A DNA stretch of 64,000 nucleotides from Acetobacteraceae bacterium AT-5844 (GTDB lineage Bacteria > Pseudomonadota > Alphaproteobacteria > Acetobacterales > Acetobacteraceae), in assembly GCA_000245075.1 (NCBI GenBank), contig JH599974.1, forward strand, positions 48,000-111,999, given 5' to 3'. Below, piece after piece: positions 5,018 to 48,898 of the stretch. The notes beneath the pieces were generated by a model. That model was not told the origin of the DNA, did not search any database, and saw only the letters and a list, made by a program, of their open reading frames with translations. Numbering within the stretch: position 1 is the stretch's first letter; the number at the start of each line of letters is the position of its first letter. The position numbers and the translations under genes are program-made.

Positions 5018-5347
5018 TTAGTTTTCGTCCTGCTGGTGATCCAGCTCCGAAAGACCCGCTTGTGCCAGTTCGGCTTTCTCCACCGCGTCCCCAATCCACT
5101 TCGGAAGACCGGAGTAGTCCCCCAGATAAATGTAGTCGGTGTTAACCCCATGGGACCGGCAGAACTTATATATGGCATAGGGGTTTGGGTAGGCGTCTCC
5201 GCGTAGCCAGTTTCCCAAGTGGTTCCTGGTCACGCCCATGGCCTCGGCCGCGTCCACCTGCTTTAGGCGGCACGCTTTGATGAGGCGGCGGAGCCGGTGG
5301 CCCACCGCGATCCGGTAATCGCTGTCTGACAGAATAAGGACCTGCAT
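5018..5347 (-). CDS. CI-like phage repressor, XRE-type HTH (109 aa)
   Basis: The start is set at ATG 5347 (MQVLILSDSDYRIAVGHRLR); the longer frame would extend through the operators and the Cro gene. A helix-turn-helix is clear at about residues 25-60 (LIKACRLKQVDAAEAMGVTR then NHLGNWLRG). The protein has no C-terminal peptidase domain, so unlike lambda CI it lacks a RecA-stimulated self-cleavage region, and induction must use another route. It is divergent from the Cro-like gene at 5435, with operators between them. By position and family it is the lysogeny repressor; this role is inferred. Confidence 0.75.
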   Translation of the reverse strand: MQVLILSDSDYRIAVGHRLRRLIKACRLKQVDAAEAMGVTRNHLGNWLRGDAYPNPYAIYKFCRSHGVNTDYIYLGDYSGLPKWIGDAVEKAELAQAGLSELDHQQDEN

Positions 5348-6398: not shown

Positions 6399-6871
6399 TG
6401 CTCGTCGATCAGACACAGACCGTCACGGCGGAACTGAGCATGATCGGCGCCAGCATGGCAGCCGAGGAACTGGTCATTCCGGTTCCTGGCATCATGCGCG
6501 GCAAGCAGCGCCCCCGGTTCAGCCGGAAGAACGGCCGCACTTATACGCCCGATCAGACCGTCAACCTGGAAGCGCACGTCAAGCAGTGTGCCATTCAGGC
6601 CGTGGGGCAGCCCTGCCTCTCGGGCCCGCTGTACATGTCCATCGACGTCGGCGTGTCGATCCCCAAGACCTGGCCCAAGCGCAAGCAGACGGAAGCCGCC
6701 AACGGCACGCTGCGGCCAACCGGTAAGCCGGACCTCGACAACATCATTAAGCTGGTCGCAGACGCCCTCAACGGCATCGTTTGGGGAGATGACGCGCAGA
6801 TCGTTGCCCAGGTTGCGACCAAGCATTACGCCGTGTTCCCCGGGACCGTGATCCGGGTGAGGGCGATATGA
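6398..6871 (+). CDS. rusA: RusA-family Holliday junction resolvase
   Basis: The 157-residue protein has the family signature KPDLDNIIKLVADALNG at about residues 110-126, with the catalytic Asp residues at 112 and 114 and GDD at 130-132. RusA dimers cut four-way DNA junctions. In phages they resolve recombination and replication intermediates before packaging. Start at 6398 is chosen for the TAATG overlap, although ATG codons at residues 15 and 20 are possible, since RusA is usually about 120-140 residues. It partners functionally with the Bet annealase of the left operon. Confidence 0.88.
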   Translation: MLVDQTQTVTAELSMIGASMAAEELVIPVPGIMRGKQRPRFSRKNGRTYTPDQTVNLEAHVKQCAIQAVGQPCLSGPLYMSIDVGVSIPKTWPKRKQTEAANGTLRPTGKPDLDNIIKLVADALNGIVWGDDAQIVAQVATKHYAVFPGTVIRVRAI

Positions 6872-7086
6872 GCGACGTCATCACCAAGGCTCAGATGTAC
6901 GCCAAGCTTCTCGACCGGATCGCCAAGCACGGTGAGCAGGTAAAGCTGGCGCATGAGGCCGGCGTCTCTCCTGCATTCATAAACCGAGTGGTTAATTCTC
7001 ACGCGGAGATCAGTCCGGCGCTTGCTGAAGCGCTGGGTTATCGCAGGGTCACGATGTTTGCCCCGATCAAGGCGCGAAGCCCGTGA
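6868..7086 (+). CDS. Small HTH-like protein (72 aa)
   Basis: Starts in an ATGA overlap with rusA. The segment LAHEAGVSPAFINRVVNSHA resembles the two helices of an XRE-like DNA-binding motif, followed by SPALAEALGYRRVTMF, which is typical of small phage Cro-like proteins. A regulatory role is inferred. Confidence 0.55.
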   Translation: MSDVITKAQMYAKLLDRIAKHGEQVKLAHEAGVSPAFINRVVNSHAEISPALAEALGYRRVTMFAPIKARSP

Positions 7087-7517
7087 ACCAATCTCACCTC
7101 CACCCCACTGCCAGGATATCGAACCGGGTGTTGGCCGCTGCTGCCAGCACCTTTTCGCGCATGGTGGCTCAGGGAATTCTGGAGCGTGAGGACGCGGTCA
7201 ACACGCTGATGGAGGCCGCCATCATGGACGGCTACCGGCAGCGCCGAATGGACCTGAGCATCCGCCTGCACAACCTCATCAGCCAGGAAGTGCTGTGGTG
7301 GGAAATGCGGCGCAACCAAGCGCCCTGGAAGATCAGGAAGGCGATCCAGCCCTCTATCCAGGCGTGGTGTGAGGCGCAAACGATCTTGAGCGAAGCATCC
7401 GACGTCAACGACCAGATGGGACAGCCTCTGCTGTGGCATGAGTTGCGCTCCCTTGTGGCCGAGGAACTGACATGGGCTCTCAAGCGGCAACGCCGCACTG
7501 CGAGGCGTCGTGTCTGA
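7083..7517 (+). CDS. Hypothetical early protein (144 aa)
   Basis: GTG start at 7083 overlaps the previous stop (GTGA). The protein has helical segments such as GILEREDAVNTLMEAAIMDG and a basic C-terminus (KRQRRTARRRV). No family recognised. It directly precedes the helicase gene, overlapping it by 8 bp, so a replication role is possible. Confidence 0.55.
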   Translation: MNQSHLHPTARISNRVLAAAASTFSRMVAQGILEREDAVNTLMEAAIMDGYRQRRMDLSIRLHNLISQEVLWWEMRRNQAPWKIRKAIQPSIQAWCEAQTILSEASDVNDQMGQPLLWHELRSLVAEELTWALKRQRRTARRRV

Positions 7518-8742
7518 CGCCTTCGCCCTCTTCGACAGCGCTCGCCAGCGCACCATGGGCCTCCATGTCATCCAGAGCAGCGACAAGCCGCTCAACATCC
7601 GCCCAGCGTCGCTGCGCGACCCTCGCTCCATCCCGCCGCGCCGCTGGCTCTATGGCACGGTCGTGGTCCGCGGCTACGTCACGGTCGTCGTCGCTCCGGG
7701 CGGCGTCGGCAAGACGTCCTGGAGCATGGCCGTCGCCGCATCGGTAGCCCAGGGCAAGGGCATCATCGGGGATCACGTGCACACCCAGGCCAACGTCCTG
7801 GTGTGCAACCTGGAAGACCCTGAAGACGAATTCGACCGCCGCTTGGCGGCCTGCATGATCCACCACAACCTCGACAATGAAGACATTGGCGGCCGCCTGT
7901 TCGTGCTGAACGGGCGCGAGCGCCGTCTCGTCATGGCCTCCCTCGACATCGACGGGATGACCATCGTCTATCCTGACAAAGACGCCATGATGGCCAAGAT
8001 CCGCGCCGAGAACATTGGCCTGGTGGTGGTGGACCCGTTCGTCAACAGCCACGAGCTGGAAGAGAACAGCAACCCCCACATCAACGCTGCGGCCAGGACG
8101 TGGGCGGAGATCGCCGATGCGACCGGATGCGGCATCATCCTCGTCCACCACACCCGCAAGAACGCTACAGCCGGCGACATCGACAGCGCTCGCGGCGCCT
8201 CCGCCCTGATCGGCGCTTCCCGAGTGGCCCTCACCATCACTGCCATGGCGCCCGAAGAGGCGGCTGAGTTCGGCATCCCCGAGAAGGATCGCCGCCTCCA
8301 CATCCGTGTCGATGACGGCAAGGCGAACCTGTCGCCGCCGGCAGATAAGGCTCGCTGGATGCGGCTGGTCAGCATCAACCTCGGCAACGGCACCCCCGAA
8401 TACCCCAAGGGCGACAACGTTCAGGCCATCGAACAGTGGGAGCCTCCCTCGGTCTGGAAGTCGCTCTCCAACGAGGACTGCAACGCCGCGTTGGACGCCA
8501 TCCAGGACGGCCCCACGCCCGGATCCAAGTACACCTCCAGCCGCGCTGGCAGGGGCGCCCAGACCCGTTGGGCGGGCCGTGTGCTGATGAACATGTTCGA
8601 CCTCAATGACGCTCAGGCCACCAAGGTCATCGCGACTTGGCTGCGCACAGGCCTCATCGAGGAAGTCGATTATTTCGACCAGGACCAGCGCAAGGATCGC
8701 AAGGGACTGGCCGTCAACAATGCGAAGAGGCCTTCCGTATGA
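7510..8742 (+). CDS. RepA-like replicative helicase, RecA-fold ATPase (AAA_25)
   Basis: The 410-residue protein has Walker A APGGVGKT at residues 62-69, a Walker B strand IGLVVVDPF near residue 172 and the LVHHTRK motif near residue 214. This is the pattern of RSF1010 RepA-like hexameric helicases (AAA_25). Such proteins unwind DNA at the replication start. The C-terminal 120 residues look like a winged-helix region. It uses a GTG start at 7510. Downstream lies the iteron-like array (8750-8962) and ssb, so this is a compact replication module. No separate initiator protein is obvious, which makes the small protein at 8739 or this one the candidate iteron binder. Confidence 0.82.
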   Translation: MSDAFALFDSARQRTMGLHVIQSSDKPLNIRPASLRDPRSIPPRRWLYGTVVVRGYVTVVVAPGGVGKTSWSMAVAASVAQGKGIIGDHVHTQANVLVCNLEDPEDEFDRRLAACMIHHNLDNEDIGGRLFVLNGRERRLVMASLDIDGMTIVYPDKDAMMAKIRAENIGLVVVDPFVNSHELEENSNPHINAAARTWAEIADATGCGIILVHHTRKNATAGDIDSARGASALIGASRVALTITAMAPEEAAEFGIPEKDRRLHIRVDDGKANLSPPADKARWMRLVSINLGNGTPEYPKGDNVQAIEQWEPPSVWKSLSNEDCNAALDAIQDGPTPGSKYTSSRAGRGAQTRWAGRVLMNMFDLNDAQATKVIATWLRTGLIEEVDYFDQDQRKDRKGLAVNNAKRPSV

Positions 8743-8978
8743 TCATTCGAATGGCGCGCGAATGGCGCAAGAATGGCGCAAATCCTCGGCGGCTCTCGGG
8801 GCGGTCAGGGGTTGTGCGCCATTCCCCCCCTTCAGGGGGGGGAATGGCGCACAAACCAGCCCCTAGAGGCCGCCTCGGCGCCTGGATTAGCACGGTTCTG
8901 CGCCAAAACTGCGCCAATCCGCAAGGGATGGAATGGCGCAAGAATGGCGCAGCAATGGCGCAGATGGAGGCCCGCTAA
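8739..8978 (+). CDS. Small ORF spanning the iteron array (79 aa)
   Basis: Starts ATGA-coupled to the helicase gene and ends TAATG-coupled to ssb. The peptide is basic and contains repeated EWRKNGA blocks because the iterons AATGGCGCA are read in frame. Lambda likewise carries its iterons inside the O gene, but this peptide lacks any recognisable DNA-binding domain. It may be real or may exist only to keep ribosomes moving from the helicase to ssb. Confidence 0.4.
   Translation: MIIRMAREWRKNGANPRRLSGRSGVVRHSPPSGGGMAHKPAPRGRLGAWISTVLRQNCANPQGMEWRKNGAAMAQMEAR
8750..8962. repeat. Iteron-like array, probable phage replication origin
   Basis: Ten copies of AATGGCGCA or its complement (some one base short) occur in 213 bp. 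Three direct copies start at 8750, 8761 and 8772, and three at 8932, 8943 and 8954. Two inverted copies start at 8899 and 8910; each of these sets has exactly 11-bp spacing. One inverted and one direct copy form the arms of a hairpin at 8812-8854. Regular one-turn spacing between a helicase and ssb is the classic layout of an iteron origin. The role is inferred. Confidence 0.65.
8812..8854. repeat. Perfect 19-bp hairpin inside the origin region
   Basis: TTGTGCGCCATTCCCCCCC (8812-8830) pairs perfectly with 8836-8854, leaving a TTCAG loop. The stem contains two oppositely oriented iterons and a 7-bp C/G run. It could extrude as a cruciform or act as a single-strand priming signal. Confidence 0.6.
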
Positions 8979-9460
8979 TGGCATCCGTCAACAAGGTCAC
9001 CCTCATCGGAAACCTGGGCCGCGATCCTGAGGTCAGGAGCTTCCAGAACGGCGGGCGCGTGGTGAACCTGCGCATAGCCACCACCGAGACCTACAAGGAC
9101 CGCGAAGGAAACCGGCAGGAGAAGACCGAGTGGCACTCCGTCGCCATCTTCAATGAGAAGCTGGGAGAGATCGCTGAGAAGTGCCTCCGCAAGGGTTCCA
9201 AGGTATACCTGGAAGGGAAGCTGGAGACCCGGAAGTGGACTGATCAGCAGGGTCAGGAGCGGTACTCCACCGAGATCGTCCTGCGCCCGTTCGGGAGTGA
9301 ACTCGTCCTGCTGGACGGCAAGGGGCAGGGTGGGGCCGACGATCAGTCCGGGCGCCCTTCTGGCCAGACGCGCACCCGCGCCCCTGGTGAGTACCCGCAG
9401 CCGCAGAAGCCCAACCGCGGCGCTCGCCGTGACTACGAAGACGACCAGATCCCGTTCTGA
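8978..9460 (+). CDS. ssb: Single-stranded DNA-binding protein
   Basis: The 160-residue protein has the OB-fold start NKVTLIGNLGRDPEVR, the core EWHSVAIFNEKLGEIAEK and the conserved acidic tip DDQIPF at residues 155-160. SSB coats exposed single strands during replication and recombination and recruits partners through the tip. The true start is ATG 8978, coupled to the preceding ORF. It completes the replication module. Confidence 0.95.
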   Translation: MASVNKVTLIGNLGRDPEVRSFQNGGRVVNLRIATTETYKDREGNRQEKTEWHSVAIFNEKLGEIAEKCLRKGSKVYLEGKLETRKWTDQQGQERYSTEIVLRPFGSELVLLDGKGQGGADDQSGRPSGQTRTRAPGEYPQPQKPNRGARRDYEDDQIPF

Positions 9461-47908: not shown

Positions 47909-48898
47909 CTATTCTACCTTGATATTCGCCTTGGCGATGACGTTGCGCCATTTCTCAATCTCGGCAGCAACGAAGGCCTCGAATTGCTCGGGCGTGTCGC
48001 TCACCGTCTGCGCGCCCTGCTCCGCCATCTTGGCCTGGAAGGCGGGATCTTTGGCGATGCTGTCCATGGCCTGGGCCAGCTTATCGACAATCGGACGGGG
48101 CGTGCGCTTCGGCACCTGTACTCCCCACCAGGCCATGGCCTGCACGGTGGGGAAGCCCTGCTCGGCGGCGGTCGGTACATCAGGCAGGCCGGGCGCGCGG
48201 GTGGCGCTGGTAACGGCGATGGCGCGCACCTGACCGTCGCGGATCTGCTGCAGCGAGGAGGGGACGTTGTCGATCCCCATATCGATGCGGCCGGCGATCA
48301 GTTCCGGCAGCATCTGGGATGCGCCGCGGAACGGCACATGCGTCAGCCGGATGCCCGCCTCCACGCCCAGCAGTTCGCCGCACAGGTGCAGGCTGGTGCC
48401 GACGCCGGAATGCCCGTAGGTGATCTCGCCCGGCTTCTGCTTCGCCAGTGCGACCAGCTCCTGCAAGTTCTTCGCCGGCAGGTCACGGTTGACCATGATG
48501 ACGTTCGTGACCTCGCAGATGCGCGAGACGGAGGCGATGTCCGAGGCCTTGAAGGGCAGGCTGGGGTAGAGGGAATAGTTGATGGCCCCCGTTCCCACCG
48601 TCGACATCTGTAGCGTGTAGCCATCCGGGTTGGACTGGGCGACCAAGGTTGCGCCGATGCTGCCGCCCGCACCGGAGCGGTTGTCAACCACAACTGGCTG
48701 CCCCAGCACCGAGGAGAGACGCTCGGCAAGAAGCCGGGCCACGATATCGGTGGTGCCGCCCGCCGGGAAGCCGACAATCATCTGCACGGGGCGGCTGGGC
48801 CACTGGTTCTGCGAACGCGCGGCGGTAGGGAGGAGGGAGGTGGGGCCAGCAATGGCGGCCGCCGCCAGAAATTGGCGGCGGGTGGACGCGCAGTTCAT
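47909..48898 (-). CDS. Bug-family (TctC) solute-binding protein
   Basis: A 329-residue periplasmic receptor with a twin-Arg-like start (RRQFLAAAAIAGPTSLLP) and the Bug pattern: WPSRPVQMIVGFPAGGTTDI, VVVDNRSGAGGSIGA and GHSGVGTSLHLCGELLG. These proteins feed tripartite tricarboxylate transporters or act as orphan sensors for carboxylates. No TctA/TctB membrane genes are nearby, so it may be an orphan. It converges on the regulator-lyase pair. Confidence 0.9.
   Translation of the reverse strand: MNCASTRRQFLAAAAIAGPTSLLPTAARSQNQWPSRPVQMIVGFPAGGTTDIVARLLAERLSSVLGQPVVVDNRSGAGGSIGATLVAQSNPDGYTLQMSTVGTGAINYSLYPSLPFKASDIASVSRICEVTNVIMVNRDLPAKNLQELVALAKQKPGEITYGHSGVGTSLHLCGELLGVEAGIRLTHVPFRGASQMLPELIAGRIDMGIDNVPSSLQQIRDGQVRAIAVTSATRAPGLPDVPTAAEQGFPTVQAMAWWGVQVPKRTPRPIVDKLAQAMDSIAKDPAFQAKMAEQGAQTVSDTPEQFEAFVAAEIEKWRNVIAKANIKVE

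Follow-up and report, generated by a model that had tools for sequence, protein, structure and literature searches.

Where does the prophage in this stretch of the Acetobacteraceae bacterium AT-5844 genome begin its replication, and which protein starts it? The 64,000-nucleotide stretch that was analysed, here called the window, contains a prophage with a helicase identical to one in IMG/VR contig IMGVR_UViG_2513237288_000009 (41 kb). Behind the gene for this helicase, which is similar to RepA of RSF1010, lies an array of short repeats (iterons) that is followed by ssb (Table 1). An earlier reading of the letters alone (the sequence-only reading) had proposed an origin embedded in a coupled reading frame between helicase and ssb, without a recognisable initiator. 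Our analysis supports an iteron array that resembles an origin, is linked to a RepA-type helicase and lies in a translationally coupled stretch; ssb is not a fixed part of it. From sequence comparison and a structure model, we consider that the array is probably the replication origin of the prophage and that the helicase gene directly before it encodes its initiator. The initiator that seemed to be missing would then be the C-terminal part of this helicase, which is predicted to form a winged helix.

The iteron word in the window is AATGGCGCA. Within 213 bp it occurs in seven exact copies, at 8761, 8772, 8843, 8932, 8943 and 8954 on the plus strand and at 8815 on the minus strand, in two copies with one mismatch, at 8750 (plus) and 8910 (minus), and in one copy with two mismatches, at 8899 (minus). 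The ten copies counted earlier are therefore reached when up to two mismatches are allowed, and not as exact copies. The remaining description of the array was accurate, including the 11-bp phasing of the sets 8750/8761/8772, 8899/8910 and 8932/8943/8954, the 79-codon open reading frame (ORF) that overlaps the helicase stop and the ssb start, and the hairpin pair, whose arms (8809-8830 and 8836-8857) are 95% complementary and contain a perfect stem of 19 bp with the loop TTCAG. Outside the array, AATGGCGCA is found exactly only once more in the window, at 47944. The 450 bp behind the helicase gene hold nine non-overlapping copies with at most one mismatch, whereas in 60 shuffled sequences the best word averaged 3.2 copies and never exceeded 5. 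Positions 8739-8978 fold as single-stranded DNA with -80.5 kcal/mol (z -8.7), and the GC content of the array, 63%, equals that of the window. A scan for terminators did not pick out the central hairpin; its single terminator-like site is on the minus strand, at 9112-9129. A mobile repeat or miniature inverted-repeat transposable element was also rejected, as matches to the iteron pair with up to two mismatches are confined to the array in the bacterium's own genome (four matches).

Relatives of the helicase were found in 21 viral loci and three genome contigs, two of them from Roseomonas, as well as in plasmids and phages. At an E-value of 1e-40, 47 of 299 genomes from the same family carry the helicase, as do 8 of 385 from the class, with the bacterium's own genome counted in both. 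The locus set comprised 117 loci, 108 of which contain the helicase, and 92 were left after identical C-termini had been dropped. The 450 bp behind each helicase were submitted to a word-free repeat test in which a locus had to beat all 60 of its shuffles; two of the 92 lack downstream DNA, leaving 90 loci. The test was passed by 57 of the 90 loci. Among control stretches it was passed by 2 of 91 taken from within the gene and by 3 of 87 taken 600-1050 bp downstream. The iterons thus lie directly downstream of the helicase gene, as in systems of the SaPI Rep type. Same-strand steps of up to 16 bp in the 57 arrays are predominantly 11 or 12 bp long (120 of 160), one of the points in favour of an origin.

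The iteron word varies among phages and is mostly uniform within an array, with AATGGCGCA, AACGGCGCA, AATTGGCGCA, TTGTGGCGCA, AAGGTGACGCA and others each in use, so that changes of word are mostly concerted. Six more viral contigs (L006-L011), whose helicases are 59-67% identical, were inspected by eye and show the same layout directly behind the helicase stop, though the word often differs: L007 has AATTGGCGCA, as does L010 in a more worn form, and L008, L009 and L011 have AACGGCGCA. L008 and L009 each also carry two copies of AATGGCGCA, which is the word of L006. A start of ssb after the array is absent by eye from all six, and the next genes differ.

The association was also approached from the words. 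Viral contigs were scanned for pairs of four words, yielding 53 loci that partly overlap the contigs already known (L169, L171, L177 and L181 are new). At 14 of these 53 loci the word is dense, with at least four exact copies close together, and 12 of the 14 lie directly behind a helicase gene, 11 of them assigned by the script rule and one, L018, from its coordinates. The exceptions are L146 and L158, where the repeats keep the reading frame of ORFs that match no Pfam family. At the sparse loci the helicase was found in 3 of 39 cases (L013, L026 and L155), and three more of these loci (L015, L025 and L027) lie at the ends of integrase genes.

To which part of the helicase could reading of the word be assigned? 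The top Foldseek matches of its AlphaFold model are the RSF1010 RepA structures 1nlf, 1olo and 1g8y (E-values of 1e-14 to 1e-15), and the protein has the RepA-type, RecA-like ATPase core of the AAA_25 / RSF1010-RepA-like hexameric helicases. The solved RSF1010 RepA chains comprise 242-254 residues and are not known to contain a winged helix. Residues 315-402 of the window helicase are modelled as a winged helix both in the full-length protein and as a domain alone, with a mean predicted local distance difference test (pLDDT) score of 87.5 and 84.5, respectively. These residues match no Pfam family above the cut-off. Fold searches with the domain gave weak scores, mostly to common winged helices (MarR-like proteins and the RQC domain of BLM, for example), and revealed no closer relative.

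Distances between words and between helicase residues were compared by Mantel tests in the 49 loci that scored above 300 and whose word is anchored on GGCGC; words with other cores, such as AAGGTGACGCA, were excluded, and near-identical loci such as L008/L009 and L061/L064 were kept. Given the ATPase, the helix-turn-helix (HTH) residues 340-385 correlate with word distance (partial Mantel 0.287, p 0.001), as does the whole C-terminal domain (0.210, p 0.002). The ATPase given the HTH does not (-0.113, p 0.98), and the ATPase halves set against each other give 0.025 and 0.042 (p 0.35 and 0.28).

Helicase and array are the constant pair among relatives, while the upstream partner differs. The gene before the helicase may be a Prim-Pol, either fused (L013, L028) or separate (L107), a separate Toprim with DUF7146 (L083, L109), a RepB-primase match below the cut-off (L086), or a protein without a family, as in the window. 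Similar-sized, poorly conserved ORFs precede many of the related helicases and align to the 144-amino-acid protein of the window with 12-38% identity. No initiator family was detected among the window proteins scanned, which represent part of the ORFs. Additionally, four circular plasmids carry the helicase with repeats behind it: pVL1_6, pR24_3, Rhodoplanes serenus plasmid 1 and a Microvirga lotononidis plasmid. Besides a phage tape-measure gene, pVL1_6 (31.5 kb) carries a Toprim primase gene, the helicase gene and the array; the array contains 9 copies against a shuffle maximum of 6 and passes the repeat test. Besides helicase and primase, no initiator family was found by Pfam and NCBIfam in its 39 annotated proteins, an unannotated open stretch of 151 codons lying outside that scan. 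Rhodoplanes serenus plasmid 1 (53.8 kb) carries terminase and portal genes, and its array passes the repeat test as well. Within the iterons of the Rhodoplanes phage-plasmid (L086), whose word is AAGGTGACGCA, a 25-bp stretch at about 5230-5290 is 92% AT, as in classical iteron origins.

Several observations weigh against an origin that is read by the helicase. The Mantel effect is modest and the loci are related to each other. Four C-terminal ranges were tried, and residues 315-345 and 383-402 alone give p values of 0.23 and 0.11. In sliding windows the ATPase stretch 250-294 reaches a similar value, 0.204; the correlation between word and HTH is therefore support, not proof. The repeat test failed in 33 of the 90 loci. 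Some of these (L007, L079) still show plain arrays, which GC-rich shuffles can imitate, and others (L046, L087) have no repeat cluster nearby. L040 has no array at the usual place, with five copies of AGCGTAGCA clustered about 1.8 kb behind the helicase instead. Arrays of mixed words occur at L008/L009, L041, L043 and L050. On pR24_3 (39.7 kb), which is likewise a Microvirga plasmid, the array consists of three AGGTGGGGCA and fails the test, as does that of the M. lotononidis plasmid, on which repABC is also present. An AT-rich unwinding element was not found beside the window iterons, where the AT-richest 25 bp within 8500-9100 are 60% AT, and is not general: only 16 of 57 arrays contain a peak of AT content that ranks in the top fifth for their locus.

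The GC skew, offered earlier as a check, is divided. The detrended minimum of the window falls at 8658, and in a block shuffle the raw minimum came as near to the array in 48 of 2000 cases. Among nine phage records, the array is no more than 2.5 kb from the detrended minimum in four, the array being near the maximum in two (L038 and L045, with the helicase on the minus strand) and near neither in three; the L043 record is not in this set. The raw minimum is near the array in none of the four plasmids. GC skew was dropped as proof of an origin because genes left of about 5.6 kb run mostly in the opposite direction and the relatives disagree.

A different division of labour would leave the array as the origin and have another protein, from the element or the host, read the iterons and hand over the helicase in the manner of RepC. 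RSF1010 does split initiator, helicase and primase among proteins, as set out in the part of PMC4234260 that deals with it, and the correlation between word and HTH is modest. On pR24_3 a 100-amino-acid winged-helix protein, HTH_91, is encoded just before the Toprim primase and helicase genes and is possibly a separate iteron reader, another point against the helicase as sole initiator. The window itself has a small HTH protein, matched below the cut-off, and the family-less 144-amino-acid protein upstream. However, upstream genes differ among relatives while helicase and array stay together, and the annotated proteins of pVL1_6 show no other recognised initiator. No RepC-like family appears in Pfam scans of the annotated pVL1_6 and pR24_3 proteins, the HTH_91 protein being separate, and the 49 annotated proteins of pR24_3 include no plasmid initiator family besides helicase and primase (by Pfam, and by NCBIfam among the matches listed, 25 of 49 families). 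We consider a separate reader doubtful, though it deserves more weight than any alternative that follows.

The array could also act as RNA, as a folded spacer in the message that protects the helicase transcript or tunes the next gene, with its repeats kept equal for pairing. We folded the 220 bp behind each helicase with DNA parameters and obtained a z below -3 for 39 of 57 arrays and 11 of 33 loci failing the repeat test. In two sets of control stretches from the array loci, 2 of 56 and 3 of 55 reached this value. Folding energies cannot separate DNA from RNA, and the position of the array, directly after the helicase stop and coupled to it, would suit a message element. Judged by the length of the hairpin alone, only 16 of 57 arrays exceed their 30 shuffles. 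The repeats are mostly direct, too many for the one or two inverted copies to pair with them all, their spacing of 11-12 bp fits a turn of DNA, and Rfam gave nothing at gathering score, so a role as RNA seems quite improbable. An operator, partition or recombination site, serving a phage regulator or recombinase rather than replication, is very improbable in our judgement. Pairs of the same word do occur at the ends of integrase genes in unrelated contigs (L015, L025, L027), but these are isolated whereas dense arrays accompany the helicase, and the annotated ParA gene of pVL1_6 is about 12 kb from its array.

Could the array simply be coding sequence, its repeats the repeats of a functional 79-residue protein? 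The helicase stop is overlapped by a start codon (ATGA or GTGA) in 36 of the 57 array loci. A coupled frame is definable in 50 of them and is open across the array in 35, compared to 32 of 100 other forward frames (Fisher p 1e-5) and 68 of 171 reverse frames (p 2e-4). Changes by codon position over all 21 pairs are 220, 208 and 286, an excess at position 3 that taken at face value speaks for a protein. The excess stems from L070/L082 and L080/L081, with ORFs of more than 220 codons, and from L095/L096, whose 93-codon ORF sits mostly before the repeats. In 13 other pairs, whose ORFs do not exceed 101 codons, the counts are 116, 115 and 87, or 132, 123 and 122 with L095/L096 added; the pairs left out of this second sum were chosen after the table had been seen, and pairs share sequences. 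Additionally, 60 of 76 gaps in the 21 pairs are not multiples of 3, the 11-bp steps place the word in all frames, and the 79-residue product belongs to no Pfam or PHROG family. The coupled frame thus tends to stay open, whereas the peptide sequence is not conserved. From the codon-position counts and the frame-shifting gaps the peptide was rejected as a functional product: it is unlikely to matter as a protein, and we give next to no credence to the array as coding repeats. A relative that keeps the peptide and has lost the repeats, which would have spoken against the sequence-only reading, was not seen; the reverse was seen.

For an origin initiated by its own helicase we propose the following. 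The C-terminal winged helix would recognise a word of 9-11 bp. With copies about one helical turn apart, several protomers could be aligned along the same face of the DNA to either side of the GC-rich palindrome, and this alignment may allow the ring helicase to be assembled and loaded. The central fold-back would provide a hairpin or a single-stranded start for a primase, the source of which may vary by element: a fused Prim-Pol, a separate Toprim or Prim-Pol gene, or perhaps the host primase. Ribosomes would pass through the stop-poor, end-coupled stretch and make the peptide as a by-product. The stretch would be mostly free of stops and coupled at its ends because the origin sits inside an operon.

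Parts of this arrangement have counterparts in known systems. According to PMC7581432, SaPI Rep and SCCmec Cch2 each use a C-terminal domain to bind iterons that follow immediately after their own gene. With these two (the Cch2 origin being putative) the window shares a helicase with an additional C-terminal domain, which binds DNA in those systems and is a predicted winged helix here, iterons behind its own gene, and, among relatives, a fused or adjacent primase. Unlike SaPI Rep and Cch2, which are DUF927 or D5/Primase_Cterm-type helicases, the window helicase has a RecA-like core closest to RSF1010 RepA, and its iterons surround a GC hairpin and sit in an open coupled frame. Since Pfam gives AAA_25 only and the fold is RepA-like, it would work like the SaPI Rep family without being a member. 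RSF1010, an IncQ plasmid with the replication proteins RepA, RepB' and RepC, has a comparable helicase core (RepA is the best PDB match) and an oriV in which iterons are combined with the hairpin elements ssiA and ssiB. Its iterons are bound by a separate protein, RepC, in the account given in part of PMC4234260, whereas here helicase and predicted winged helix form one protein with the array behind its gene. The archaeal plasmid pRN1 encodes ORF904, a Prim-Pol/helicase/winged-helix protein, and needs a stem-loop of about 100 nt behind the gene for replication; the authors of PMC4234260, in its passages on pRN1, extend this arrangement to some phages. The window likewise has a stem-loop behind the gene of a helicase with a winged helix, here predicted. 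The pRN1 helicase belongs to superfamily 3 and its origin is without iteron structure in those authors' account there, in contrast to iterons plus stem-loop here. As in phage lambda, whose origin lies inside the initiator gene O (PMC6022878), the putative origin is within a reading frame, but this frame follows the helicase gene and encodes a peptide that is not conserved. The unit appears to join features of SaPI Rep/Cch2, pRN1 and RSF1010 on a RepA-type core. In the literature searched, with most subscription papers outside it, no paper was found that describes iterons following the gene of a phage helicase of AAA_25 or RepA-like type, which is no proof of novelty.

If these proposals are correct, the array would mark where replication takes place, and the helicase would be a candidate initiator, in temperate Acetobacteraceae phages as well as in phages and phage-plasmids of other Alphaproteobacteria. 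The paired protein and DNA sequences would make a recognition code testable, dense arrays (12 of 14 behind the helicase) would serve as a marker for origins in unannotated contigs, and the coupled frame would represent a way to house an origin within an operon while ribosomes keep moving. We see an even chance that the pattern is broader still: RepA-fold helicases with a winged-helix tail would be widespread self-initiating replicons of phages and phage-plasmids, in which tail and word co-diversify into many mutually blind origin types, the primase is freely exchanged, and the origin lies in a translated frame with a functionless peptide.

Table 1. Coordinates of the array, its parts and the surrounding genes (window positions unless a plasmid is named).
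Feature	Position	Strand	Remarks
Whole array, also 79-codon ORF	8739..8978	+	ATGA-coupled to helicase, TAATG-coupled to ssb
Left direct iteron triplet	8750..8780	+	11-bp steps; first copy has one mismatch
Central hairpin	8809..8857	.	arms hold inverted iteron 8815-8823 (-) and direct iteron 8843-8851 (+)
Inverted iteron pair	8899..8918	-	11-bp step; two mismatches at 8899, one at 8910
Right direct iteron triplet	8932..8962	+	11-bp steps
AAA_25 / RSF1010-RepA-like helicase, 410 amino acids, GTG start, proposed self-initiator	7510..8742	+	PF13481 E 5e-40; phrog_25693 E 5e-67
Predicted winged helix at helicase C-terminus, residues 315-402, proposed iteron reader	8452..8715	+	AlphaFold, weak fold matches, partial Mantel
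ssb, next gene after array	8978..9460	+	PF00436 E 1e-35
144-amino-acid protein directly upstream of helicase	7083..7517	+	no Pfam or PHROG family
Small HTH protein upstream of helicase	6868-7086		match below cut-off
100-amino-acid winged-helix protein HTH_91, pR24_3 (L119)	9044-9343	-	E 1.8e-35; two genes before helicase, same direction

The isolated word pairs at integrase genes share one form, AATGGCGCA-(TA/TG)-AATGGCGCA, at L015 1627-1646 (minus strand), L025 14761-14780 (plus) and L027 193-212 (minus). They overlap the end of integrase genes (PF00589) beside a tRNA-like 3' end in unrelated prophages, and may be integrase arm sites sharing the word. Repeats like AACGGCGCACC occur in frame within one ORF without a Pfam family at L158 8664-8786 and L166 10521-10541 (minus strand), perhaps an origin inside an initiator gene. 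In Microcystis phage Mae-Yong1326-1 (L088, 6316-9110), genes annotated as CobS and CobT are located near the helicase, together with GACTGGCGCA repeats. Lastly, positions 565-1047 of the window (minus strand), near a RecT gene, encode a small protein with a DnaJ zinc-finger-like match (PF00684) below the cut-off.

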